DNA of 29,167 nucleotides from positions 1-29,167 of the IMG/VR virus record IMGVR_UViG_3300037572_000230; one strand, 5' to 3'. This DNA comes from a virus. A program made the translations under genes and the position numbers. Below, one piece after another: positions 1 to 24,533 of the stretch (positions within the stretch are counted from its first letter, which is position 1; the number at the start of each line of letters is the position of its first letter). A model generated the notes under the pieces. The model was given only the letters and a program-made list of their open reading frames with translations. It was not told the DNA's origin and made no database searches.

Positions 1-120
1 CCATTCTTCCCTCCCTTCTTTCCCCCGTTCTTCCCACCGTTCTTCCCTCCGTTCTTTCCCCCGTTCTTTCCCCCGTTCTTCCCACCCTTCTTCCCGCCTC
101 ACTTCCCGCCTCACTTCCCG
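1..120 (+). repeat. 12-bp tandem repeat, ten copies
   Basis: Ten consecutive 12-base units of the form ccN ttY ttY ccN fill 1-120. The last two units have cac in place of the first ttY. The array is strongly pyrimidine-biased on the + strand. Unit length is a multiple of three, so copy-number change would keep the reading frame of the protein it encodes. The array continues past the left edge of the window. Confidence 0.9.
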
Positions 121-138
121 CCAGCGTTCACGAAGTAG
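1..138 (+). CDS. C-terminal end of a Pro/Phe-repeat protein (partial)
   Basis: The frame starting at base 1 is open from the window edge to a TAG at 136-138. It encodes eight copies of Pro-Phe-Phe-Pro, two of Pro-His-Phe-Pro, and a Pro-Ala-Phe-Thr-Lys tail. Codon third positions vary among copies (cca, cct, ccc, ccg; ttc, ttt) while the residues stay constant, which suggests selection on the protein. The GGKN frame of the opposite strand is broken by two TGA codons. Another opposite-strand frame is open but low in complexity and has no good start, so the + reading is preferred. The N-terminus and function lie outside the window. It directly precedes the oxygenase operon on the same strand. 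A proline-rich tail could be a structural extension or a substrate of the hydroxylases that follow, which is inference. Confidence 0.55.
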   Translation, partial: PFFPPFFPPFFPPFFPPFFPPFFPPFFPPFFPPHFPPHFPPAFTK

Positions 139-151: not shown

Positions 152-775
152 GTGGAAGCCTCTCTCGTAGAACCAGGTCATTTCGGAGCGTCGACTGACA
201 GCATCACCATCCTGGAGGACTTCGTTTCACCCCTGGACCTGGAGCACATGAGCGTGTTCCTGCCGCACATCTCCGAATGGGACAACCCGAGGGAAACCGA
301 GTACGACGAGAACGGTGTCTGCATCTACGACGCTTCGTACTGGTGGGACCGCATGTGCTCTGGGCCGATCATCCAGAGGATCAACCCCTTCGTGTATCAG
401 ATGATCGAGAAGTACATCGACAAGATGCAGCGCCACCTGGAGGCCAAGCACAACGTCACCCTCACCTGCCGGCCCCCGGTGCTCGTCCGTTGGCTCCCAG
501 GTTGTGAACAGTCGCCGCACGCCGATAAGCAACTCAACGACGGCAGCCCGAACCCGTTCCCGACCTACGACCTGAACTCGATCATCTACTGGAACGAGGA
601 CTTCACGGGCGGACAGTTCCATTACCCCGGCTACGACATCGAACTGCCCATCAAGAGCGGTTTAGCGGTCGCTCACCCTGGGGACGTTCACTATCTTCAT
701 GGCGTCAAGCCGGTGGAGACAGGTGTACGCTGGACGACACCGTCGTTCTACACGATCACTTCGTTGGGAGATTGA
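152..775 (+). CDS. Prolyl-4-hydroxylase-like 2OG-Fe(II) oxygenase
   Basis: This 207-residue protein is predicted to couple 2-oxoglutarate decarboxylation to hydroxylation of a peptide or other substrate in the cytoplasm. The double-stranded beta-helix signature is readable: His123-x-Asp125 (PHADKQ) as the first two iron ligands, a hydrophobic strand with a Gly-Gly turn near 153, distal His183 and 2OG-binding Arg193 (HGVKPVETGVRW). GTG at 152 is the only possible start, since an in-frame TGA lies at 146-148 and the next ATG falls well inside the fold. It is the first gene of a nine-gene operon, one base from the next gene. The family is well supported; the substrate cannot be read from the sequence. 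Confidence 0.88.
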   Translation: MEASLVEPGHFGASTDSITILEDFVSPLDLEHMSVFLPHISEWDNPRETEYDENGVCIYDASYWWDRMCSGPIIQRINPFVYQMIEKYIDKMQRHLEAKHNVTLTCRPPVLVRWLPGCEQSPHADKQLNDGSPNPFPTYDLNSIIYWNEDFTGGQFHYPGYDIELPIKSGLAVAHPGDVHYLHGVKPVETGVRWTTPSFYTITSLGD

Positions 776-776
776 A

Positions 777-1478
777 ATGGATGTTGCCGGCCACCTGGGA
801 AACAAGTTCTCGGGGATCATGCTGTACAAGAACGTGTGGCCCGAGGACTCCAACTTCGTCGAGCGCCTGGAAGCAGCCATCGGGGGCTCTGACAACGAGT
901 GGTTCCAGTGGCAGTCGGCACGGGTTGGGGACCACGAAGAGATGCTCGACTACCGCGACTGTTCAGACTTCAAGGTCGCAGAGTCGATGCTTGAGACTGT
1001 CCCAGCCGAGTTTGAGGACATTGTCCCCCTCTACCAAGAGGTCATGGAAGGGGTACGGGAGTGCGTCAAGCACTATTCGGGTCTTTACAACCTGACCCTG
1101 GATTACGAGGAAGCCACCAACTTCGTCAAGTACGAGGTGGACCAGCATTTCGCTATCCACCCTGACCACGGGTTCTCATACTCGTGTGTCGTGTCAGCGA
1201 TCGGGTACCTGAACGGCGGGTATGAGGGCGGTCAGTATCGGATGCCCTACCAGGACTTCGACTTCACTCCAGAAGCCGGCGATGTCATTATTCACCCGTC
1301 GACGTTCATCTACGCCCACGCCTCCTTGCCGATTATCGAGGGCACGAAGTATTCTGCTGTCACGATGTATGACTACAACGACCGCAATCATCTAAACCAC
1401 CAGGCCCAGGCCGATCCGTATGCCCAGGCGCAGGCCATTGGTGAAACGGTTGGCCAGGTAACCACCATCAGCGACTGA
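777..1478 (+). CDS. Prolyl-4-hydroxylase-like 2OG-Fe(II) oxygenase
   Basis: From ATG 777 the protein has 233 residues. The frame is open further upstream to 699, but 777 has a Shine-Dalgarno sequence (gggag, 766-770) and starts just after the previous stop. Iron ligands are His128-x-Asp130 (IHPDHG) and His181. The 2OG carboxylate contact appears to be Lys191 (IIEGTKYSAV), as in classical prolyl 4-hydroxylases, whereas the other four P4H-like proteins here have Arg. A Gly-Gly-x5-GG strand turn (147-152) is typical. The C-terminal 40 residues are Gln/Ala-rich and poorly conserved in character. The protein is divergent from its neighbours, so this looks like a separate lineage rather than a recent duplicate. 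Substrate unknown. Confidence 0.85.
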   Translation: MDVAGHLGNKFSGIMLYKNVWPEDSNFVERLEAAIGGSDNEWFQWQSARVGDHEEMLDYRDCSDFKVAESMLETVPAEFEDIVPLYQEVMEGVRECVKHYSGLYNLTLDYEEATNFVKYEVDQHFAIHPDHGFSYSCVVSAIGYLNGGYEGGQYRMPYQDFDFTPEAGDVIIHPSTFIYAHASLPIIEGTKYSAVTMYDYNDRNHLNHQAQADPYAQAQAIGETVGQVTTISD

Positions 1479-2725
1479 TGAACCGTTCGTGGTATCCGGC
1501 GGTCAGGGAGGGGTATGACTTTGACGCCATCATGGAGACGCTTCCTGAGTGGAACAGCGACTACCAGGATGTTGGGTTAGTCGCTTTCAAGGGGGCCGAC
1601 TTGACGAGTGCCCAACTCGTTGAGGTGTTCAAGGGGGTCGGAGAACTCAATGGGTTTGGCCACTCAGGGTCTGCTGACCATACGTCCAAAGAGTTGCCCG
1701 ACTTCTCCACGGCGAAAGGCCACGGTGACTGGTCGGAAGGCGCCCAGTTGTATTACGACACGCATCACAACACGATGGGCGCCAACGCGCACACCGGCCA
1801 TTCGCCGGTTGATGCCACGACTCCAATAGCCATCCAGTTCCACTTGGAGAACAGCCACCGTGTCTGGCCGCAACTAGCGGCAGGGTGGACGATGCCTTTC
1901 AAGACCTGCCCCCCGCAAGAGGGGCGAACAGGGTTTCTCGACTGCCAGACGATCTTCAAGCAGTTCCCGACGGCTATCCAGGAGACTCTCCTGACGTTGC
2001 CGACCATCATCGAATACCCAAGTGCCGAGGAGGCTGTGCTGGAGGAGGGCAGCAACGACCTTTTGCCCTCCGTAGTGTTCACGGCTTTGATGAGAGAGTC
2101 CTGCACAGAGTTGGGCGACTGGGCATTCGATGGCAACGGTTACACCTGCGAAGTCCGCTCTGCGGCGTTACCGCACCCCGTCACTGGCGTCCCTGTCCTT
2201 CGCACTATGCCGTTTTCGGTACGCCAGGGGGCTCTCCACGAAGAGGACGAAGCCGAGTGGGCTGAGGCTCGCGTGTGGATCAGAAGGGCCTTCGACATGG
2301 AGTCACACACCCACGTGGAGGGCGGTGTCGAAACGACCTATGTCGGCCATCAAAACTGCCTGGTCTGTGGGTGGGATCGGGACCACCGTAGGGACGTTGA
2401 GGAAAACTTTGGGAATCTACAGAACCTTGTTTGGTGGGAGTGGGACACAACAGACTTCCTCATGGCCGACCTGTTCAGAATGGCCCACGGCGTATCAGCG
2501 TTCCCTGGGGGGACACGGACGTTGCGTGGCATCTTCGGCTACGACTTGGCTGTCGATTGGGACAACTTCTCAATATCTGCCCCGTCTATTGCATCCCCCA
2601 ACGAGGAGTATCCGTTGCCTGTGAAGGGGAAGGGTGCTGTCTTTGAGAACAACGACCCTACGCTCGCCGAAGACCTCCGGGGTCCAGCGCCCACAGGCAA
2701 CCTGGCATTTGAGTATGGCTCGTGA
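1478..2725 (+). CDS. TauD/clavaminate-synthase-like 2OG oxygenase
   Basis: This 415-residue protein is larger than typical TauD (about 280). Iron ligands read as His122-x-Glu124 (FHLENSH), the HxE variant known from clavaminate synthase, and His337 (MAHG). Arg347 and Arg350 follow at +10 and +13, where TauD has 2OG-binding arginines at about +11 and +15. The TauD hallmark HPVTG is present at 233-237. Extra length lies in the region 255-330, which includes Cys-x-x-Cys at 294-297. The start ATG overlaps the previous stop as TGATG without a Shine-Dalgarno sequence, so translation is probably coupled. TauD-fold enzymes act on small molecules such as sulfonates, amino acids or carnitine precursors. 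The substrate here cannot be assigned. Confidence 0.82.
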   Translation: MNRSWYPAVREGYDFDAIMETLPEWNSDYQDVGLVAFKGADLTSAQLVEVFKGVGELNGFGHSGSADHTSKELPDFSTAKGHGDWSEGAQLYYDTHHNTMGANAHTGHSPVDATTPIAIQFHLENSHRVWPQLAAGWTMPFKTCPPQEGRTGFLDCQTIFKQFPTAIQETLLTLPTIIEYPSAEEAVLEEGSNDLLPSVVFTALMRESCTELGDWAFDGNGYTCEVRSAALPHPVTGVPVLRTMPFSVRQGALHEEDEAEWAEARVWIRRAFDMESHTHVEGGVETTYVGHQNCLVCGWDRDHRRDVEENFGNLQNLVWWEWDTTDFLMADLFRMAHGVSAFPGGTRTLRGIFGYDLAVDWDNFSISAPSIASPNEEYPLPVKGKGAVFENNDPTLAEDLRGPAPTGNLAFEYGS

Positions 2726-3438
2726 AGGTGACTCTCACTAAGAGCCATCAGAACCCGCCCGAGATCAGGCAGTGCCGTCCTCGCCGCGACTGGATGGATG
2801 GCACTTATCGAAAGCACGCCTACAAGTGCCTGCCGATGACAGCAGCGAACACTTACGGGTGGGAACTGGTGTTACCCCAGGAAGTGAAAGTCATCTGGGA
2901 CGGCGGTAACACTGTCCCCAGGGTTCTGTCAGGGGAGAAGATCACCTGGGATACTGACGGCCACGAGTATGAACGTGACGTTGTTGTCCAGTCGATTATC
3001 GGGATGGTGTCGTTTGCCACTGGGTGGGCGATAAATCCACCCGAGGGGTATTCCGTGTGGTTGTCGGGCGCCCCGAACCATTACATCAAGCATGCTCATC
3101 CGCTGACGGCGATGATGCCCGGTTGGTGGCCTGATGAGCCCAACATGAACTGGATTATCGACACTCCGAACGTGGAGATCACCTTCCCCGAGGGGATGCC
3201 GTTCATGTTCTTCCAGATCATCCCTGACCATGCTCTGGAGGATGTCAGGTTCCAGACGCGTGGCATGTGGGAAGAGGCCGCTTTGATGGAGCAGAGGTCC
3301 AACTACGGGAATGCTAAGGCCAAGAAGATGATTGACGAGCCGTGGACGTGGATGGGTGGTATCCGCACCGGCCTGGACGAGAAGGGCGAGCAGATAGGCC
3401 CCAAGCATGACGGTCACCCGGTGCTCGATGTCCCCTGA
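2722..3438 (+). CDS. DUF6065-like protein
   Basis: This 238-residue protein resembles the DUF6065 family as I recall it: an early PMTAANTYGWEL stretch (about 39-50), a central block ending in GYSVWLSGAPN, and a Trp-rich segment around MNWIIDTPNVEITFPEGMPF, ending with a Phe-Phe-Gln-Ile-Ile-Pro motif. The fold is probably an all-beta, cupin-like shape, but no metal-binding triad is obvious to me. The GTG start overlaps the previous stop by four bases (GTGA), a strong coupling arrangement. Its place inside a run of oxygenases suggests it serves the same pathway, for example substrate binding or delivery. That is inference from position only. Confidence 0.65.
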   Translation: MKVTLTKSHQNPPEIRQCRPRRDWMDGTYRKHAYKCLPMTAANTYGWELVLPQEVKVIWDGGNTVPRVLSGEKITWDTDGHEYERDVVVQSIIGMVSFATGWAINPPEGYSVWLSGAPNHYIKHAHPLTAMMPGWWPDEPNMNWIIDTPNVEITFPEGMPFMFFQIIPDHALEDVRFQTRGMWEEAALMEQRSNYGNAKAKKMIDEPWTWMGGIRTGLDEKGEQIGPKHDGHPVLDVP

Positions 3439-3631
3439 GTGGACTTTGTTGGCCGCCGTGACAGCCTTTTACGCTTTCCAGGAGGGGCCGTGTTACAGCG
3501 TCCGCCAGCCTCGGGTCGGCTTGTATTACGAGCAGTTCTTTAGGAACGGAATAGCATGGGACATCAGTGCCCCGTTCAACCGGTCTAGGGGACCGATGAG
3601 CCAGGATTGGACAATCCATGAAGATCATTGA
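3428..3631 (+). CDS. Small unknown protein in the oxygenase operon
   Basis: From ATG 3428 it encodes 67 residues. The frame is open from 3407, but that would lengthen the overlap with the DUF6065-like gene. It overlaps the next gene by 14 bases. The sequence is aromatic-rich with a central GPCYSVRQPRVGLYYEQFF stretch and no signal peptide or membrane helix that I can see. No family is recognised. Evidence that it is real: it fills the only gap in an otherwise gapless operon, and the reading frame there does not belong to a neighbour. Confidence 0.55.
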   Translation: MSPEWTLLAAVTAFYAFQEGPCYSVRQPRVGLYYEQFFRNGIAWDISAPFNRSRGPMSQDWTIHEDH

Positions 3632-4592
3632 ACTCGACGACACGCTGGAACAGGTCAAAGCCGACCCAGAGCACTATCGGGAACTGTTCTTCGAGAACAA
3701 GGTGCTGGTATTCAAGAACCTGGGCCCAGGTGCTCTGGCTTCTTTCTCAAAGGCGATCACGGGGTACGCCCCGTCCACAATGGGGCAGGGTGCCAATGTG
3801 GGCAGCGGTCACAGCCAGTTCCTCGGCGGGCATTCCCATTACCAAACAGGTGAAGACCACAAGGTCCGTTTCGAGCAGTTCTGGACTGGGGACGGGACTG
3901 GCGGCGAAGAGCCAGACAACGAGCCTCGGGTGTACACCGCTCAAACCGAAGAAGGCGAGTTCTACGAGATGGAACCAGTGCGTTCCACGTTCATGTTCTG
4001 GCATTTGGAGGACGCCTACAAGGAGTTCCCACCCACGGCCATCGTCATGTCGTTCGCCACGTTTACAGCCCATCCGGGCACGGGGGGCTCCGGGTTTGTT
4101 GACATGGCAGAGGCTTACGAAGCGATGAGGCCAGAGTGGCAACACGGCCTACGTGAAGCCACTAAGGCGGCGGTTCAGGTCCCATTCATGCCTGATGGTG
4201 TTGTCCAATACCCTCATAAGATCGTTAGCCGGCATTGGCACACCGGCGAGTCATTTCTGCCGCTCCAGGGGCATTGGCGGGACTGCGAGGAACTGCCGTA
4301 CAGCATCGACATCGACACCTGTGATGGGCTAACCGAAGAGGACCTGCTCGACATCAACGAATGGGTGTACCAGTTCCAGGTCAGCCCCGAGAACCAGCAC
4401 TGGGTCGATCACGAAGAGGGTGATCTCGTCATGTACGACGGCCAGTCGCTGTCTTACGCCATCGGCGCCGGCTTCTCCCACGGGGAACGTGTGTTCGATC
4501 GGGTGTCGTATCATGAAGGGGAACCGTCTGTGCGGTTACCACCGAGGCATTCTTCTTATACCGTTCCCGAGGGGCACGTTTACCATGGCTGA
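3618..4592 (+). CDS. TauD-like 2OG oxygenase with altered distal ligand
   Basis: This 324-residue protein aligns by eye with TauD over the first ligand pair, His129-x-Glu131 in FWHLEDAYKEFPP, and over the GGSGFVDMAEAYEAM stretch (156-170), which matches the TauD 'GG..lw....AYeaL' segment. In the C-terminal block GDLVMYDGQSLSY, the position of the third iron ligand is Tyr280 rather than His, while Arg291 and Arg295 sit at +11 and +15, the TauD spacing for 2OG binding. His288 lies eight residues on and might substitute. The protein may therefore bind iron differently, act with altered chemistry, or be inactive. It starts 14 bases inside the previous gene and ends 8 bases inside the next. Confidence 0.8.
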   Translation: MKIIELDDTLEQVKADPEHYRELFFENKVLVFKNLGPGALASFSKAITGYAPSTMGQGANVGSGHSQFLGGHSHYQTGEDHKVRFEQFWTGDGTGGEEPDNEPRVYTAQTEEGEFYEMEPVRSTFMFWHLEDAYKEFPPTAIVMSFATFTAHPGTGGSGFVDMAEAYEAMRPEWQHGLREATKAAVQVPFMPDGVVQYPHKIVSRHWHTGESFLPLQGHWRDCEELPYSIDIDTCDGLTEEDLLDINEWVYQFQVSPENQHWVDHEEGDLVMYDGQSLSYAIGAGFSHGERVFDRVSYHEGEPSVRLPPRHSSYTVPEGHVYHG

Positions 4593-5475
4593 CATCGAAC
4601 ATCTCCCGATGGGGCTGGCCATCATCAGGGACGCCATGGAAATACCTGATTGGCTCCATGGAGAAATCCTCGAAAGAAGCCAACGAGAGTTCGACATCCA
4701 ATACCAGGTTGCTGACGATGGGACCGTTTACCAGCGAGGGAACGACAACCCGAACTCGAATGAGTTCCGCTCGTTGGAACACCAATCAACGGTTCCGACA
4801 CGCTTCCAGCCACATGACGAACGGGTCGAATCGTCGGGGAGGTGGAAGGAGTTTTGGCGGGAAGCATGCGATGCCCAATACCAGGGTCTTCTCACCTACT
4901 GCGAGGAGTACACCATGCTGCTGTCGCAGATTTGGTGGTCCAACAGGGGCCACGTCCTTTGCTACGGCAGGGGTGGCTTCCTGGGCGGACACCACGACAA
5001 CGACATCGGGTACTCCTACGAAACGAGAGACGATGTCATTGGGTTTGCGGAAGCGGCGACCAGGAATGTCGTTTCGACAACACTCCATCTGTGCGATACC
5101 GACGGCGGGAATCTTGTCTTTCCGTATGTCGGTGAAGAGATCGAAACGAAGGCAGGGGATTTACTGATCTTCCCCGCCAACTACATCGGTGCCCATTGGG
5201 TGACAACGATCAAATCGGGGCACAGGATGTCGTATCTCACCTGGTATGGGCAGGGGTCTTCTCTCGGGTTGAACGCTGGTACTGACAAGCCCCATGTCAT
5301 CCACAACGAGGACCGTCTGGACGCCAACCAGTTCGTCTGGTGTGAATCACCCGTTGAAGACTTCATGGAGCACTCTGGGTGGTCCCATGAACAGATGAAA
5401 GCGGCCTTCCCGTCGTTCGACTCACGAGGGACGCCAGAGTTTTGGCAAGGCCCCACTGACGACAACCCGTACTAA
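4585..5475 (+). CDS. Prolyl-4-hydroxylase-like 2OG-Fe(II) oxygenase
   Basis: ATG 4585 gives 296 residues and has a Shine-Dalgarno sequence (gagggg, 4569-4574). The open frame reaches back to 4420 but that part overlaps the upstream gene and is out-of-frame shadow. Ligands: His136-x-Asp138 (LGGHHDND), His204 (IGAHWV), with Arg214 for 2OG (SGHRMSYLTWYGQG). The C-terminal 75 residues after the fold form a tail rich in Trp and acidic residues, not seen in the smaller paralogs. It shares with the next two genes the pattern ATRNVVS, FP-x-NYigaH and RysYL, and so belongs to a tandem paralog trio. Substrate unknown; a peptide is likely for this subfamily. Confidence 0.87.
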   Translation: MADIEHLPMGLAIIRDAMEIPDWLHGEILERSQREFDIQYQVADDGTVYQRGNDNPNSNEFRSLEHQSTVPTRFQPHDERVESSGRWKEFWREACDAQYQGLLTYCEEYTMLLSQIWWSNRGHVLCYGRGGFLGGHHDNDIGYSYETRDDVIGFAEAATRNVVSTTLHLCDTDGGNLVFPYVGEEIETKAGDLLIFPANYIGAHWVTTIKSGHRMSYLTWYGQGSSLGLNAGTDKPHVIHNEDRLDANQFVWCESPVEDFMEHSGWSHEQMKAAFPSFDSRGTPEFWQGPTDDNPY

Positions 5476-6269
5476 TGAAGAACCTGGGGAGCGGGGTAGT
5501 CCTCTTCGAGGACAGATTCACGCTTGACTGGGGGTGGATGCGTGCATTCTGCAAAGAGACGCTCGCCAGCGAACGCGACGACATGTACACGCCAGGTGTT
5601 GACCACATCACTGGCGTAGACGGCTACATCAACAAGTCCGGCTACTTCTTCGGTGAGGACGAGGTCGATGTGATGCCGTGGCGGGGTTCTGCCGTCCACC
5701 AGGACACCAGGCAGGACGTTATCGACGCCCTAACCCTCATCGAGGAAGCCCGCGACGCCTGCTTTGCCGAATACTGCGACCTCTTCCCCCTGGTCCTCAA
5801 GTGTGTTTGGTGGAAGATCAAGTCCCACATTGTCGCCTACCCCCCTGGTTCCTTCCTGGGGATGCACTCAGACATCAGCACTGACTACAAGTACGGCCGG
5901 CCCGAGCCGATAGACCAGTTGGCGACCAGGAACGTCGTTTCCGTCGTCGCCTACCTCAACGACGGTGTCGATACCGAGGATGAACTCGACGGTACGAACT
6001 TCACTGATGGCCACCACAACTTCGCTTATCTGGACATCTCTTACAAGCCGAAGAAGGGCGACATCCTGTTCTTCCCGTCGAACTACATGGCCGCCCACGA
6101 GGTCCAGCCTGTTGGCGCTGGGATGCGGTACACCTACTTAGGGTGGTATTGCCAGGGGACCCCGAATAGTGCTGTTAGGGAGAACGTCGTTGACCCTGCT
6201 ATCAACCCTGAACTAGCGGAGTGGGCGACGAACGTCTACATCCAGGAGGGGCCTGGCAGTGGAGGTTGA
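5475..6269 (+). CDS. Prolyl-4-hydroxylase-like 2OG-Fe(II) oxygenase
   Basis: This 264-residue member of the paralog trio has iron ligands His131-x-Asp133 (LGMHSDIS) and His208 (AAHEVQPV), with Arg218 (GMRYTYLGWYCQG) for 2OG. A Lys-Lys-Gly-Asp-Ile strand (193-197) precedes the FFPSNYMAAH strand typical of P4H folds. ATG 5475 overlaps the preceding stop as TAATG, so translation is probably by re-initiation. A His-His pair at 180-181 lies in an insert between the core strands. Like its neighbours it has no export signal and should act inside the infected cell. Confidence 0.87.
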   Translation: MKNLGSGVVLFEDRFTLDWGWMRAFCKETLASERDDMYTPGVDHITGVDGYINKSGYFFGEDEVDVMPWRGSAVHQDTRQDVIDALTLIEEARDACFAEYCDLFPLVLKCVWWKIKSHIVAYPPGSFLGMHSDISTDYKYGRPEPIDQLATRNVVSVVAYLNDGVDTEDELDGTNFTDGHHNFAYLDISYKPKKGDILFFPSNYMAAHEVQPVGAGMRYTYLGWYCQGTPNSAVRENVVDPAINPELAEWATNVYIQEGPGSGG

Positions 6270-7011
6270 GGAGTGCGGAGGGGGTGTTGTCGCCTTCCAC
6301 AACGTCGTGGACATTGACAGGGAGTTCCTGGCGGGCTGGATAGCGAAGCGCAGGGAGACAGAGCCGCCACAGTTCACCGACAACGGAGACGGCACCTACA
6401 CAAACCTCGGTGGGTACACCATCGACGCCGACCAGGCGCTGAGTCAACCCGGCCGGCTGGTCCAGATTTGGGATGACGACCCCGAGTTCGCTCAAACCCT
6501 CAGCGATGCGCTTTTGGAATGCGTAAAGGGTTACATGTACATTTACCCGGCGGCCAGGCAGGCCGTGTGGGCACGGATGCCGGCTCACGTGGTCACCTAC
6601 ACGGAGGGGCAGAGCATCGGTGAGCACACCGACACCAGCGTCGAGGTCTCAGATGTCAAATACTGGGAAGGGGAGATACCCAAAGCGACGATCTCCAGCC
6701 TCAATGTCATCAGCGGGTCTCTGCTTCTAAACGACGACTTTGAGGGAGGCGAAATGCGATTCAGGCACGCCGCCAAGCAGCCCTTGATGAAGGCTGGGAG
6801 CGCGGTCTTGTATCCGTCTAACTACATTGGGATGCACGAAGTAAGGCCGGTAACGAAGGGGGAGAGGTATTCCTATCTCCAGTTCGTTGGCACAGGCCCG
6901 CTGACACCCAGCGAGATCGAAACCTACAAGCAGTGGGATCGTGAGGGCAAAAGCGTGTGGCTTCCCCCTGACATCCTCTACGAAAGAACTCCTAGGCGTC
7001 CTTACGGATGA
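6259..7011 (+). CDS. Prolyl-4-hydroxylase-like 2OG-Fe(II) oxygenase
   Basis: This 250-residue protein, third of the paralog trio and last gene of the operon, starts at GTG 6259 with a strong Shine-Dalgarno sequence (aggagggg, 6244-6251). Ligands: His123-x-Asp125 (GEHTDTS), His193 (GMHEVRPV) and Arg203 (GERYSYLQFV). A Gly-Gly turn (163-164, FEGGEMRF) lies between. It overlaps the previous gene by 11 bases, and its 3' end overlaps the convergent methyltransferase-like gene by 20 bases, so no terminator fits between the two opposing units. Confidence 0.87.
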   Translation: MEVEECGGGVVAFHNVVDIDREFLAGWIAKRRETEPPQFTDNGDGTYTNLGGYTIDADQALSQPGRLVQIWDDDPEFAQTLSDALLECVKGYMYIYPAARQAVWARMPAHVVTYTEGQSIGEHTDTSVEVSDVKYWEGEIPKATISSLNVISGSLLLNDDFEGGEMRFRHAAKQPLMKAGSAVLYPSNYIGMHEVRPVTKGERYSYLQFVGTGPLTPSEIETYKQWDREGKSVWLPPDILYERTPRRPYG

Positions 7012-7753
7012 TCGTGAACCCTAGGTCGATTGGTATGTGGAATACGTTGTATCCACTTTTGTTCAGAATGTGCTTCTGAATCCTGACGTAATGATGCAGG
7101 GAGTAGAACCGTTCCGTGTACACCTTGCGGTAACCCGAAGTGTTCATTATCAGCATTGTCCCATCTGGGGCCATGGCGTCGAGGTAAGCGTCAACGAACT
7201 TCATCGTTGGTGACATCAGATTGCCTATGTTCGTTTCGACAAAATCGTATTCACCAGAGTGGTCGCCCGACAAGATGTCCTGGCTGTCCACCACAGCGTA
7301 AGAGGGGCCCCGCTCCTGGATGGTGGCATCACCCTTTACGAATCGCTCAAAGACGGCGAACTCTAGGTTGTTGACGTAGGTGATTTCCTTAGACGAGTCA
7401 GTCAGGTAATCAATGAACCATTCGCCCGCGTCCGTGTAGGTCCAAAGGGCTGTCGACCAGGTCGCTGTGGACAACAGCATCCTACGCATGAGAGCGTGGC
7501 TCCAAAGCCATGCTGCCCACTCGGGGTGGGGGTTATCGTAGGTGTCCCACAATTCAAGATAGGGGTCTATCCCGATAGCGATTGCCCGTCGGTCCGGGTT
7601 GAAAGTATCCAGCAGGGCCTTCGTTTGGCTTGTGAAATCCTGCTTTCGGGCGTTGCTGTGAAAGTCGATGTCCTGGTGCGTGACCTGAGACAGGTTGACA
7701 GCCGCTAGGTCCTTCTTGAACATCTCGGTGATGGAATAGTGCATTGTTGCCAT
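6992..7753 (-). CDS. Methyltransferase-like protein, motif I not evident
   Basis: From ATG 7753 the protein has 253 residues; the frame is open to 7789 but the ATG overlaps the previous stop as TAATG. The C-terminal half looks like a class I SAM-dependent methyltransferase: GEYDFVETNIGNL, then FVDAYLDAMAPDGTMLIMNTSG (a 'd.yl..m.pgG.l.i' strand-turn), and a terminal NVFHIPIDLGFTIIRK beta hairpin. The usual glycine-rich SAM-binding motif I is not evident: the candidate strand reads AIAIGIDPYLELW. It could be a divergent methyltransferase or a related Rossmann-fold protein. It is the last gene of the leftward block. The target is unknown. Confidence 0.45.
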   Translation of the reverse strand: MATMHYSITEMFKKDLAAVNLSQVTHQDIDFHSNARKQDFTSQTKALLDTFNPDRRAIAIGIDPYLELWDTYDNPHPEWAAWLWSHALMRRMLLSTATWSTALWTYTDAGEWFIDYLTDSSKEITYVNNLEFAVFERFVKGDATIQERGPSYAVVDSQDILSGDHSGEYDFVETNIGNLMSPTMKFVDAYLDAMAPDGTMLIMNTSGYRKVYTERFYSLHHYVRIQKHILNKSGYNVFHIPIDLGFTIIRKDA

Positions 7754-8085
7754 TACAGGGCCTGGAATCCTTTCGCAGCGTTTCGCCAATACCAGGCTCG
7801 CCGCACGTGCTCATCGAGTTGCCGTGATTCAATGACCATGAACTCGTCGGCGGCGGGGCGATATCGCCGTTTCTCATCTGACCAATGCGCTCGTTCATCC
7901 ATCGGGATGTACATGTGCATGGCCCGTGACGCGGCGATGATCTCGTCGATGGTGGTCGTATCGACGTTGGGGGCCATGCCGAGGATGTTCATGGTGGTAG
8001 CGATCTCTACCTCAGCGAACGCCAGGTCCTGTGCTGGGTCGTAGATGTAGCCAGTGGCGCTTGAGGAGCGTTTAGACATCTTCAT
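7753..8085 (-). CDS. Unknown small protein
   Basis: This 110-residue protein begins inside the end of its upstream neighbour (14-base overlap) and ends one base into the next gene. It starts basic (MKMSKRSS) and ends with a helical Trp-rich stretch (RRAWYWRNAAKGF). No signal peptide, membrane helix or known motif is visible. The coupled arrangement in a five-gene leftward block is the main support. I do not recognise the family. Confidence 0.7.
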   Translation of the reverse strand: MKMSKRSSSATGYIYDPAQDLAFAEVEIATTMNILGMAPNVDTTTIDEIIAASRAMHMYIPMDERAHWSDEKRRYRPAADEFMVIESRQLDEHVRRAWYWRNAAKGFQAL

Positions 8086-22158: not shown

Positions 22159-22863
22159 ATGGCGCAGATTGCCGAAGACTACGTATCACCTTCCGTCCGT
22201 TGGGGGGTCCTCAAGCAGGACTACCCCGAAGCGATCGCCGAGTTTTCCGAGATGACGGGAGTCGAACTTGGCATCCCCGAGAAGTTCGGGGGCTCCGACA
22301 ACTACTGCGTCGCGCAGATTCTCCTGCGCCCCACAGACGAGTTGCCCATCGTCGGGTACAAGCCGTTCTCCGACGCCAAGTCCAACAAGAACGACCACCC
22401 GTCCGACGCGTGGAACATCTTGTGCACCAAGGCCCTGGGGCGCGCTCTCAAGAGGGCCGGTTACGCCGACACTGCTGGGGAGATGAAACTCATCGTCCAG
22501 TACAAGCGGCGGAACGCCGAACACGACGCGATTCGTGGTGGCGGTTCACCCGACGCCGACCACGAACACGTTGTCGAGGGGCTCACCGAGAAGGTGGGGG
22601 TCCCTGAGTTCGCCGTCCACATCGAGAACGACGAGGTTGTTTACTCCGACGATTGGGAGAGCGACGAGGCGATGGCCAAGGCCCACGTCGAACTCAAGGA
22701 GATGGTCAACAATCTGCCTCTTGGCTATGCGGACTCGGCCCGTGAGGCCCACCAGAAACTCAATGGCCGGCAGTGGCCGATCATGAAGGTCAGCCAATAC
22801 AACTCCGTCTTCAACACCGTCACGAATCTCCACGCTGAGGCCATAGCGGAGATGAGTGAATGA
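22159..22863 (+). CDS. Possible ssDNA-annealing or recombination protein
   Basis: This 234-residue protein has a strong Shine-Dalgarno sequence (aggagg). The first 120 residues look like a compact alpha/beta domain ending in a conserved-looking helix, CTKALGRALKRAGYAD (about 89-104). That helix recalls the 'T.AlkRA...G' helix of Rad52/ERF-type annealing proteins. An acidic linker and a helical C-terminal region (MAKAHVELKEMVNNLPLGYADSAREAHQKL) follow. It is the first gene of the replication/recombination block and is coupled to a HIRAN protein gene (ATGA overlap), which fits a role at DNA ends. The family assignment is tentative. Confidence 0.4.
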   Translation: MAQIAEDYVSPSVRWGVLKQDYPEAIAEFSEMTGVELGIPEKFGGSDNYCVAQILLRPTDELPIVGYKPFSDAKSNKNDHPSDAWNILCTKALGRALKRAGYADTAGEMKLIVQYKRRNAEHDAIRGGGSPDADHEHVVEGLTEKVGVPEFAVHIENDEVVYSDDWESDEAMAKAHVELKEMVNNLPLGYADSAREAHQKLNGRQWPIMKVSQYNSVFNTVTNLHAEAIAEMSE

Positions 22864-23204
22864 AGTCCCCGTTTGAGGTCCCGGTTGCCGGCGTGACGTT
22901 CCGCCCTGGTTACCCGAAGAACCTTTGGGACATCGCCGGTGCCATGGTCGAAGTGTTTGGCAAGACGCCGAGGGTCATAGCGACTCTCGTCAGGGAGCCT
23001 GAGAACGAACACGACCCGAACGCCATCAAGGTGCTCGTCGCCGCCGAGCATGTCGGTTACATCCCGTCACGCGAGGCTGGCGGGCTGGCCCCCCTAATGG
23101 ACGCTGGCGAACGGTGGTGTGGTCTGGTAGACCGTCTTGTCGTTTCACCCGAGAACCCAGAACAACCTGGGCTGAGAGTAAAGGTGGTCAAGGATGAATC
23201 TTGA
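22860..23204 (+). CDS. Stand-alone HIRAN domain protein
   Basis: The 114-residue protein is almost entirely one HIRAN domain: VAGVTFRPGYP at the start, REPENEHDPNAIKV (about 46-59) and HVGYIPSREAGGLAPLMDAGE (about 64-84), all diagnostic. In HLTF, HIRAN binds the 3' end of single-stranded DNA and helps reverse stalled forks; in bacteria and phages it occurs alone or fused to nucleases and helicases. Here it is a free subunit, overlapping the previous gene by four bases and the next by eleven. A SNF2 helicase in the same block could be its partner, which is inference. Confidence 0.85.
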   Translation: MKSPFEVPVAGVTFRPGYPKNLWDIAGAMVEVFGKTPRVIATLVREPENEHDPNAIKVLVAAEHVGYIPSREAGGLAPLMDAGERWCGLVDRLVVSPENPEQPGLRVKVVKDES

Positions 23205-23781
23205 CGAACGGATAGCCGAGATTGACGCGATGGCAGGGGAACTCCGCAGGTCGCTCGACATGGCGATCGCCGAGGCCAAGGAGAACGCCGAGGACGCCGT
23301 CTATGGCCCCGAGGACACCCTCCAGGGCACTGCGAACTCGATGGTGGACCTCTTGGAGGTCATCAAGGCCCACAAGTCGGTGATGCGCGACGTGGACAAC
23401 GAAGCGAATCCGACGCTGGTGTCGATCATGGACAACCTGGGGACCCGCAAGTTCGAGAGGGGTGGGCTCCTTGTTGAGAAGAAGCAGTCGTCCTACCGCT
23501 CCAACTGGCAGAACAACGTCCTTGTCCGGTCAGTGGTGAATACCGCCATGGACGAGATTGCCGACCGTGAGTACGTCGATCAGGAGACTGGGGAACCGAT
23601 CAGCGAGCGCGCCATTCTGGCCCCGTGGATCGAAGCCATCGTGGAGCGTCTGCTGGAGTGTGCTGCGTTCCGTGACTGGCGTGTCACCGCCTTGCGTGCC
23701 CGTGTCCCTGGGCTCGATCCAGACAACTTTTGTGACGTGAAGCGTTCCACTAAGGCGACGATTTCCAGGGTCAAGAACTGA
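23194..23781 (+). CDS. Unknown protein in the replication block
   Basis: This 195-residue protein starts with an acidic helical region (LDERIAEIDAMAGELRRSLDMAIAEAKENAED), likely a coiled coil. A conserved-looking core follows with a Trp/Asn motif (SSYRSNWQNNVLVRSVV) and a C-terminal half containing Cys and Trp (LLECAAFRDWRVTALRARVPGLDPDNFCD). No catalytic motif is evident. It overlaps its upstream neighbour by 11 bases and its downstream neighbour by one (TGATG). I do not recognise it; position suggests a replication or recombination accessory role. Confidence 0.75.
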   Translation: MNLDERIAEIDAMAGELRRSLDMAIAEAKENAEDAVYGPEDTLQGTANSMVDLLEVIKAHKSVMRDVDNEANPTLVSIMDNLGTRKFERGGLLVEKKQSSYRSNWQNNVLVRSVVNTAMDEIADREYVDQETGEPISERAILAPWIEAIVERLLECAAFRDWRVTALRARVPGLDPDNFCDVKRSTKATISRVKN

Positions 23782-24533
23782 TGGCGATTGAAGTCATGGT
23801 CTGGGTTCTGGAGCAGGACAGGAACATCACGACAAACGAGAAGTTCGTTCTCCTGGGGATCGCCAATCACAGCCGGCCAGATGGCACGAACGCGTTTCCT
23901 TCGTTAGACACCCTCGCTCGGTACACGCTGCTATCTCGTTCGACGGTACAAAGGTGCATCAAGGAGTTGTTGAGTAAGGGTTTCCTGACCTACGAACCAG
24001 GCGGGGGCAGAAAGTCAAACACATACATAGTGACAATGAACTATGCCAAAGTCACCCGTTTAGAGGTTCTTGAGGGGGGTCAGAGTGACACCCCTACAGG
24101 GTCAGGCTCTGACCCGGCAGCAGAGTCAAGCCTTGAACTGGCAGCAGGGTCAGGCTCTGACCAAGGAACCGTAATAGAACCGTTATCTACCGAAATAGAA
24201 CCTCGCGCAAAGAAACGCGACGAGGTCTGGGACGCGATCATGGAAGCATGTGGAGTCAATACTGCGACGATCAACTCCAACGAGCGCGGTCGCTACAACA
24301 AGGCCGTGAAACTACTCAAGGAGTCCGGTGCCACCGGCGCCCAGATTCACACGCGGGTGCAGGTGTATCGCCGCAAGTTCAAGGGCGCCTCTGTCACCCC
24401 GGTGGCCATCGCCAACCACTGGTCTGAGTTGGACCCGGCGACAGTGAAGGTCGAAGATGTAGTTTCAGCCCCAAAGGGTTGGGATGCAATTAGGCAAGCG
24501 AGGGAGGCCCGCGATGGGCAACATCAGACTTGA
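23781..24533 (+). CDS. Replication initiator with N-terminal helix-turn-helix
   Basis: In this 250-residue protein, residues 1-90 read as a winged helix-turn-helix of the HTH_36 type: NEKFVLLGIANHS, then FPSLDTLARYTLLSRSTVQRCIKELLSKGFLTYEPGGGRKSNTY. This is the arrangement in phage replication initiators and DnaD-like proteins. Residues about 97-130 are a low-complexity linker built of 8-residue repeats (GSGSDPAA, ESSLELAA, GSGSDQGT), whose DNA contains four inverted-repeat iterons. The C-terminal 100 residues (RDEVWDAIMEACG onward) probably form a second helical domain for helicase or loader contact. The design parallels lambda O, whose gene also carries the origin. Confidence 0.7.
   Translation: MAIEVMVWVLEQDRNITTNEKFVLLGIANHSRPDGTNAFPSLDTLARYTLLSRSTVQRCIKELLSKGFLTYEPGGGRKSNTYIVTMNYAKVTRLEVLEGGQSDTPTGSGSDPAAESSLELAAGSGSDQGTVIEPLSTEIEPRAKKRDEVWDAIMEACGVNTATINSNERGRYNKAVKLLKESGATGAQIHTRVQVYRRKFKGASVTPVAIANHWSELDPATVKVEDVVSAPKGWDAIRQAREARDGQHQT
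24078..24162. repeat. Four 24-bp iterons, probable origin of replication
   Basis: Four palindromic units lie at even spacing, with centres at about 24084, 24107, 24131 and 24155. Two are near-perfect: GGGTCAG-GCT-CTGACCC at 24099-24115 and the same at 24147-24162 less one base. The first (ggtcagagtgac) and third (tcaagccttga) are diverged. The array lies in the linker of the initiator gene and encodes its 8-residue repeats. AT-richer sequence follows at 24165-24200 (gtaatagaaccgttatctac), a possible melting region. Confidence 0.6.

Follow-up and report, generated by a model that had tools for sequence, protein, structure and literature searches.

The operon at positions 152 to 7011 of the DNA studied here encodes, at a probability of about 0.76, the enzymes of a phage module for hydroxylating a repeat protein of the virion. 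The DNA comprises 29,167 nucleotides (positions 1 to 29,167 of IMG/VR record IMGVR_UViG_3300037572_000230), and this whole stretch is referred to as the window. The reading is built on observed gene content, active sites, the fold of the enzyme ox2, the presence of the repeat protein, and the linkage of repeat and enzymes across divergent phages.

Results

Organization of the oxygenase operon

Nine genes follow one another on the plus strand, each overlapping its neighbor or separated from it by a 1-base gap: seven 2OG-Fe(II) oxygenases, five of them P4H-like and two TauD-like, a DUF6065 protein, and a small ORF (Table 1). An earlier sequence-only reading had described such a nine-gene operon with almost no spacing, and profile searches bear it out. 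PF13640 or PHROG 61 matches the five P4H-like enzymes and PF02668 the two TauD-like ones, which places all seven in the superfamily, and the intervening protein that had been called DUF6065-like matches PF19541. The ox1 match to PF13640 falls under the curated cut-off, and those of ox2, ox5, ox6, and ox7 lie over it. It had also been claimed correctly that the metal- and 2OG-binding residues are intact in six of the seven, the exception being ox4T. The suggestion that seven successive oxygenases are unusual does not apply inside the module, where the median is seven per locus (range 0–12 in 72 loci where 8 kb or more follow the repeat).

An assembly artefact was rejected, because other contigs (L002–L007) have the same or a similar gene order. 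L002 is a separate contig with the same order and 99.5–100% protein identity, L003 is another with 91–99% identity across the operon, and L004–L007 are relatives of similar order in which some genes were gained or lost. The small ORF matches no family among the Pfam and PHROG profiles and, among the first eleven relatives, is present in L002 and L003 only. Directly past ox7 lies a convergent gene, m1, whose profile weakly matches a tRNA methyltransferase (E 0.004); it is possibly SAM-methyltransferase-like.

Table 1. Features of the operon and its flanks
Feature	Position	Strand	Length (aa)	Match or observation	Active site and conservation
3' end of the gene preceding ox1, (FFPP)n...PPHFPPAFTK, stop	1..138	+		Open in frame 1, TAG 136-138	
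ox1, P4H-like	152..775	+	207	PHROG 61 E 6e-11; PF13640 E 2e-3	H123/D125/H183/R193; each in ≥95% (40 homologues)
ox2, P4H-like	777..1478	+	233	PF13640 E 2.6e-6	H128/D130/H181/K191; invariant (alignment of 33 sequences)
ox3T, TauD-like	1478..2725	+	415	PF02668 E 3.5e-10	H122/E124/H337/R347; intact (alignment)
DUF6065 protein	2722..3438	+	238	PF19541 E 1e-35	
Small ORF	3428..3631	+	67	Pfam/PHROG profile searches: no match	
ox4T, TauD-like	3618..4592	+	324	PF02668 E 3.6e-13	H129/E131 kept; Y280 in place of distal metal-binding His
ox5, P4H-like	4585..5475	+	296	PF13640 E 7e-9	H136/D138/H204/R214; kept in 23/23 homologues
ox6, P4H-like	5475..6269	+	264	PF13640 E 9e-12	H131/D133/H208/R218; each in ≥95% (40 homologues)
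ox7, P4H-like	6259..7011	+	250	PF13640 E 4e-9	H123/D125/H193/R203; each in ≥93% (29 homologues)
m1	6992..7789	-		Family found in 18 loci	

A proline-rich repeat protein is encoded upstream

The window begins within a gene that precedes ox1 and contains only its last 138 bases, which encode the C-terminal end of a repeat protein. The repeat has a period of 12 (TRF), and 15 of the 19 base differences among its 10 units are at codon position 3. Complete homologues are found upstream of ox1 in L004–L009 and L011. In the complete relatives, the (PP[F/Y/H/W]F)n tail comes after a PASTA or Fn3 domain, and the gene adjoins tail-fiber genes; in L005, an Mtd_N fiber lies upstream. The Fn3 or PASTA domain ahead of the repeat and the Mtd_N fiber suggest that the product is part of the virion. 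A collagen-like Gly-X-Y repeat was not what the enzymes are linked to, as the PP[F/Y/H/W]F motif has no glycine. Among 84,980 bacterial genomes, the repeat was matched six times: four matches are on phage-like contigs, and two show no phage or oxygenase signs.

The sequence-only reading had proposed a dedicated modification pathway and had overlooked this protein. The evidence supports such a pathway, and the (PP[F/Y/H/W]F)n protein emerges as the most likely target of the enzymes.

Repeat and enzymes are linked in both directions

In the forward direction, 120 contig stretches were found by a PPFF-repeat DNA pattern alone. Ninety of them have P4H-profile genes locally (340 genes in total), 58 have at least three, and 67 have DUF6065. 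The nearest P4H gene is downstream of the repeat in 88 of the 90, at a median distance of 624 b. Controls drawn with random patterns gave 0/120 and 0/39; the first differed in GC (57% versus 39%), and a second, GC-matched control was then run. Eighteen of the 30 stretches that lack a local match have PF13640 over the cut-off elsewhere in the contig. In total, P4H-like enzymes accompany the repeat in 108/120 contigs, compared with 0/39 among whole contigs matched for GC (Fisher p 7e-27), where the controls are unmatched for habitat and host and many positives are related to each other. The other 12 contigs, mostly short fragments, have no PF13640 gene over the cut-off, and two of these 12, of 37–38 kb, have no PF13640 gene at all.

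In the reverse direction, 80 loci were fetched by the ox2 profile alone. The repeat is present in 66 of them, always upstream and on the same strand, and in 0/159 controls (p 2e-45). When at least 5 kb of upstream sequence is available, the count is 35/38, and the remaining three carry a short version, PPYFPPSF or PPYFPPNF. In loci fetched with DUF6065, too, ox1 is preceded by a PPxF gene, whole or as its 3' end. The gene-neighborhood comparison in viral contigs that had been proposed earlier shows the oxygenases recurring downstream of the PPxF repeat gene.

The repeat protein and the oxygenases might be mere neighbors in a variable fiber locus common to many aquatic phages, with the enzymes acting on another virion protein, host EF-Tu, or host surface molecules. 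Both indeed sit between neck/fiber and tail genes, a typical spot for accessory genes; cultured cyanophages carry similar enzymes beside fibers without PPFF repeats; and the closest structure to ox2 is a P4H bound to EF-Tu. However, repeat and enzymes stay linked across two deep DUF6065 clades, whichever of the two is used for the search, despite changes in gene content and in the N-terminal domains of the repeat protein, and a shared fiber locus alone leaves unexplained why nearly all loci found with ox2 have the proline repeat. We therefore consider mere proximity unlikely, although it is the strongest of the alternatives.

The cyanophage comparison can be made more specific. Oxygenases of T4-like cyanophages, such as S-SCSM1 (PHROG 61), belong to the same superfamily, occur in multiple copies, and adjoin tail-fiber genes; the genome of S-SCSM1, a cultured phage, is reported to have 24 of them (PMC9602691). 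When ox6 and an ox2-family relative were searched against cultured phages, mainly cyanophage enzymes were retrieved, at about 24–38% identity. No PPFF repeat was seen in the three cyanophage oxygenase regions examined, and tblastn with two divergent DUF6065 queries gave no match in 50,697 phage records, so that no cultured phage with the complete module was found by these queries.

The number of enzymes was not correlated with the length of the repeat (rho 0.17) or with its residue variety (rho 0.10). The presence of up to 12 oxygenases for a repeat built from only two or three residue types also counts against it as the target.

ox2 resembles prolyl hydroxylases that act on proteins

All five P4H-like enzymes have the HxD...H triad and the Arg or Lys for 2OG, kept in 93–100% of homologues; ox7 is a paralogue of ox5 and ox6. 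The core enzyme of the module is ox2, the only one of the five that was modeled (AlphaFold2 pLDDT 87.5). The model is a double-stranded beta-helix, and its top Foldseek matches in the PDB are prolyl hydroxylases. Profile and model both match the Pseudomonas putida P4H with EF-Tu, the PBCV-1 collagen prolyl hydroxylase, PHD2-HIF, and an algal P4H with (Ser-Pro)5. By its model, ox2 is closest to prolyl hydroxylases that act on proteins, and prolyl hydroxylase activity is predicted.

The best structural match, the P. putida enzyme (PDB 4iw3), is a bacterial peptidyl prolyl hydroxylase whose target, EF-Tu, is a host translation factor and not a repeat substrate. The second best, PBCV-1 vCPH (PDB 5c5t), is a virus-encoded P4H fold, but there a single algal-virus enzyme is paired with collagen-like repeats, whereas here several phage enzymes accompany a glycine-free PPxF repeat. 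Lysine is the 2OG anchor in collagen-type and algal prolyl 4-hydroxylases. C-P4H and Cr-P4H-1 share this anchor and the fold with the ox2 family, and their substrates, collagen and Hyp-rich cell-wall proteins, are proline-rich repeats, as is PPxF. The phage system differs from them in repeat motif, setting, the DUF6065 partner, and the many paralogues.

The TauD-like enzymes diverge in their active sites. That of ox3T is intact, whereas homologues of ox4T in L004, L005, and L007 are further degenerate, with N/D/T/L at the four active-site columns, and ox4T probably belongs to a pseudoenzyme lineage. TauD enzymes, considered as candidates for acting on histidines of the repeat, appeared to be associated with that residue (Fisher p 3e-6 on raw loci), but the association is not significant once related phages are collapsed by clustering at 55% (p 0.27); nearly all loci with both fall in one part of the DUF6065 tree.

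The DUF6065 protein has a dUTPase-like fold

The AlphaFold2 model of the DUF6065 protein (pLDDT 87.7) has a dUTPase-like fold. Foldseek matches it to dUTPases with E 7e-5 and probability 1.0, and among the matches listed the TM-score by target reaches 0.72, with rmsd 4–11. The fold led us to reject a further oxygenase or a cupin. Across 26 diverse homologues no Asp or Glu is invariant or nearly so, the motif 3 catalytic Asp of dUTPases included. The dUTPase fold lies outside what repeat hydroxylation would have predicted.

Phages use TET/JBP-type 2OG oxygenases on DNA. Together with the dUTPase fold, this raises the idea that the oxygenases hydroxylate bases or nucleotides to evade host nucleases and that DUF6065, a relative of dUTPases, handles nucleotides. 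We regard this as very improbable: none of the seven oxygenases matches TET/JBP in Pfam at E up to 1, the nearest solved structures to ox2 are protein hydroxylases, the catalytic acid is unconserved in DUF6065, no DNA-modification gene is present among the scanned window genes, and the idea does not account for the repeat protein that accompanies the enzymes. Since those nearest structures are protein hydroxylases, the nucleoside mass spectrometry proposed earlier looks less promising than peptide mass spectrometry.

Discussion

For hydroxylation of the repeat protein, we infer the substrate, the residues, the order of events, presence in the virion and the effect there, and the role of DUF6065 as follows. 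The repeat protein would be made in the host cell, and the P4H-like enzymes ox1, ox2, and ox5–7 would then bind its repeats and add hydroxyls, most likely on prolines. The paralogues may each have their own positions, or one may act where a second has already left its modification, and the TauD-like enzyme might target some other residue. DUF6065 might serve as a scaffold or adaptor with no catalytic role. The hydroxylated tail would then be assembled into the particle, where it could alter stiffness, solubility, or adhesion.

Some clusters contain tailoring genes that consume hydroxyls, namely a carbamoyltransferase (L080) and sulfotransferase-like genes, and in such relatives the hydroxyls could be a handle for further decoration. 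A more tentative extension, to which we give somewhat less than even odds, is a widespread phage system with as many as twelve 2OG oxygenases, DUF6065 proteins, and at times sulfotransferase-like, carbamoyltransferase, or methyltransferase-like genes, which would load a (PP[F/Y/H/W]F)n virion tail with dense and variable modifications and so yield a hypermodified fiber. Its chemistry would be comparable to that of hydroxyproline-rich plant cell-wall proteins or mussel adhesive proteins, and the modification pattern would vary from phage to phage and could control how they attach.

Aquatic phages often carry 2OG-Fe(II) oxygenases as accessory genes, and the roles listed for them in the papers examined are untested. 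In the published view they are auxiliary metabolic or DNA-repair genes, those of cyanophages being treated as metabolic (PMC3037559, PMC4164917, PMC9602691). On that proposal the enzymes would deplete 2-oxoglutarate or divert the nitrogen or energy metabolism of the host. It is highly unlikely here, as it needs no linked repeat protein, no set of up to 12 diverse paralogues, and no protein-hydroxylase-like folds, and the operon sits in the structural region. The pairing with the PPxF repeat recurs in many uncultured phage contigs, and linkage to one type of repeat protein gives phage 2OG oxygenases a testable job, one that would assign them to virion maturation instead of host metabolism. Mass spectrometry of peptides from PPxF tails and enzyme assays on synthetic PPFF peptides offer a cheap and concrete test. 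The module would also supply a family of small enzymes for hydroxylated repeat polymers.

Literature searches for DUF6065, phage hydroxyproline, and FFPPFF returned nothing on this system, with thin coverage of subscription journals. The FFPPFF string did occur in text on the Amanita MSDIN peptides, which are ribosomal cyclic peptides of fungi, and the likeness is probably coincidental. As to the host, the tape measure protein matches a Pontimonas phage at 37% over 20% of its length and the SNF2 helicase matches Arthrobacter phages at 36%, weak hints of an actinobacterium.

Gene Content of the Operon

The operon at 152–7011 consists of nine plus-strand genes whose ends abut or overlap. The sequence-only reading had counted five P4H-like and two TauD-like 2OG-Fe(II) oxygenases with six of the seven active sites intact, and both counts held: the P4H class was recovered by Pfam and PHROGs and the TauD class by Pfam, and every enzyme except ox4T has the full set of metal- and 2OG-binding residues, which homologues also conserve. 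In ox4T, the distal His is replaced by Tyr280. Because its homologues in three related viral contigs (L004, L005, and L007) have lost further active-site residues, ox4T looks, from its sequence, like a pseudoenzyme lineage alongside an active TauD. The conservation of a degenerate TauD-like protein beside the active one suggests an active/pseudoenzyme pair.

The operon is followed on its 3' side by five small minus-strand genes, a tail module encoding a tape measure protein (PF10145), an SPP1-type Dit, and a 1,845-residue protein with a Peptidase_S74 domain, and then replication-type genes, including an SNF2 helicase. The phage is of the siphovirus type, and the window, an IMG/VR virus record of 29,167 bases, is probably a fragment of a longer virus genome. 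A stand-alone HIRAN-domain protein is encoded in the replication region (22860–23204), and a short 24-base tandem repeat is present at 24097–24162 within an HTH protein gene (23781–24533).

Coordinates of genes in the window and in related viral contigs (L handles)
Gene	Sequence	Position	Strand	Class or domains
ox1	window	152–775	+	P4H-like
ox2	window	777–1478	+	P4H-like
ox3T	window	1478–2725	+	TauD
DUF6065 gene	window	2722–3438	+	
67-residue ORF	window	3428–3631	+	
ox4T	window	3618–4592	+	TauD
ox5	window	4585–5475	+	P4H-like
ox6	window	5475–6269	+	P4H-like
ox7	window	6259–7011	+	P4H-like
ox4T homologue	L004	3813–4865		
ox4T homologue	L005	11787–12839		
ox4T homologue	L007	11781–12833		
Complete repeat gene	L005	8189–8632		PASTA, (PP[F/Y/H/W]F)n
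Complete repeat gene	L009	6709–7203		PASTA, (PP[F/Y/H/W]F)n
Complete repeat gene	L011	1977–3011		Fn3 domains, (PP[F/Y/H/W]F)n
~254-residue family	L075	2835–3602		
Carbamoyltransferase	L080	3985–5430		Carbam_trans_N and _C
Sulfotransferase-like	L054	3164–3931		
Sulfotransferase-like	L059	28–795		
Sulfotransferase-like	L086	2429–3169		

Repeat Protein Upstream of ox1

The operon's coordinates stood as first read, but bases 1–138, which encode the end of a repeat protein, fell outside them and were missed. Frame 1 reads PFFPPFFP...PPHFPPHFPPAFTK-stop. Of the 19 base differences between the ten repeat units, 15 lie at codon position 3 and the others change Phe to His, a pattern that suggests selection on the protein. 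Three related contigs (L002, L003, and L010) also start at position 1 within the repeat of 12-base period, and the break in the PPxF tail is therefore probably an assembly stop; in other contigs, the repeat gene may be missing or truncated in the same way. Complete genes in relatives encode N-terminal domains followed by the repeat, many longer tails ending in PPxFK, and variants such as PPPF and PPSF retain the PPxF frame. In L005, a 958-residue protein with an Mtd_N fibre domain is encoded immediately 5' of the repeat gene.

Linkage of Repeat and Oxygenases

A DNA pattern for PFFPPFFPP, free of any enzyme information, matched at least 120 viral contig stretches, which were scored with P4H-like and DUF6065 profiles built from the first relatives. 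P4H-like genes were found in 90 of the 120 listed stretches (340 genes; at least three in 58 stretches), and DUF6065 in 67. The nearest P4H-like gene was downstream of the repeat in 88 of the 90 and on the same strand in 77, at a median distance of 624 bases. As controls, 120 random 14-mer stretches and 39 GC-matched (38%) stretches contained no P4H-like genes. In whole contigs, PF13640 scored above cut-off in 18 of the 30 lacking a local match and in none of the 39 controls (one sub-threshold match). This gives 108 of 120 listed contigs against 0 of 39, where 108 is approximate, summing home-made and Pfam profile tallies, and the p-value (Fisher, 7e-27) is descriptive, since the samples of both tests include related phages.

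In the reverse direction, the ox2-family profile alone retrieved at least 600 stretches from the same collection (593 confirmed). Among the best 80 loci, 66 contained the PPxF repeat, always upstream and on the same strand, compared with 0 of 159 control loci. With at least 5 kb upstream, the proportion was 35 of 38, and the other three had a short PPYFPPSF or PPYFPPNF in an ORF just 5' of ox2. In loci retrieved via DUF6065, ox1 is likewise preceded by a repeat-protein gene, complete or represented by its 3' end. Where 8 kb or more of downstream sequence is available (72 loci), the median number of oxygenases is seven (range 0–12), and 65 of these loci contain DUF6065. This two-way linkage extends over two deep DUF6065 clades.

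Putative Substrate

Among known structures, the ox2 profile matched bacterial P4H structures (3itq, E 6e-7), as well as procollagen lysyl hydroxylase LH3, PKHD hydroxylases, and prolyl 3-hydroxylase. The AlphaFold2 model of ox2 (pLDDT 87.5), which shows a predicted protein-hydroxylase fold, most closely resembles P. putida P4H bound to EF-Tu and is also close to PBCV-1 collagen prolyl hydroxylase, HIF-peptide complexes of PHD2, and an algal P4H bound to a (Ser-Pro)5 peptide. When ox1 and ox6 were searched as single sequences, their matches to prolyl hydroxylases were only weak (E 0.06–0.08). None of these matches pointed to a nucleic-acid oxygenase.

We consider it likely, with a probability of about 0.76, that the PPxF repeat is the substrate of the operon oxygenases. 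Prolines would be the main hydroxylation target, the paralogues may share out positions or steps, and the product would be a modified virion fibre. This reading does not explain why so simple a repeat is paired with so many enzymes, nor the role of DUF6065 or the target of the TauD pair. An apparent association of TauD with histidine is confounded by phylogeny.

DUF6065 and Other Partner Genes

DUF6065 has a dUTPase-like fold (pLDDT 87.7; Foldseek E 7e-5) and a mostly invariant N-terminal motif, R-x-W-M-x-x-T-x-x-x-H-A-Y-x-C. DUF6065 proteins share no conserved acidic residue and, judged by this feature, are not functional dUTPases. A second, unnamed family of ~254 residues, present in 46 loci, is distantly homologous to DUF6065 (hhalign 97.3%) and therefore probably shares the dUTPase fold.

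Additional genes in some clusters encode a GSHPx-like protein, an SDR, or a 4HBT thioesterase, and one oxygenase/PPxF cluster includes a carbamoyltransferase. A sulfotransferase-like family with IPRTSG and RDPVEHY motifs was found in nine loci, and its L054 member is flanked immediately on both sides by P4H-like genes; the family profile matches HS6ST over one stretch (E 5e-8) and another sulfotransferase at E 0.008. Since carbamoyl and sulfo transfer require acceptors such as hydroxyls, these genes are compatible with hydroxylated side chains without proving them.

Cultured Phages and Bacterial Contigs

Phage 2OG oxygenase genes have been assigned metabolic, nitrogen, or DNA-repair functions (PMC3037559, PMC4164917, PMC9602691, PMC9599517, PMC11561400), and one of these papers notes that no study had specifically addressed what they do in viruses. 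Two DUF6065 queries found no match among cultured phage records. In cyanophages, related oxygenases likewise adjoin fibre genes. S-SCSM1 (MK867354.2, 207796–228257; L292) has two tail-fibre genes flanked by seven 2OG oxygenase genes, in groups of four and then three, and its "short tail fiber," which contains RQPRNFR-like Pro/aromatic repeats, represents a cultured-phage candidate for such a substrate. Related enzymes surround the long tail fibre of S-SSM7, and one lies near a collagen-repeat protein in ACG-2014f. Phage-like contigs with the PPxF repeat are also found in MAGs labelled Verrucomicrobiales, Gammaproteobacteria, and Chitinophagaceae (L295, L297, L299, and L300), and these are probably mis-binned phage contigs.
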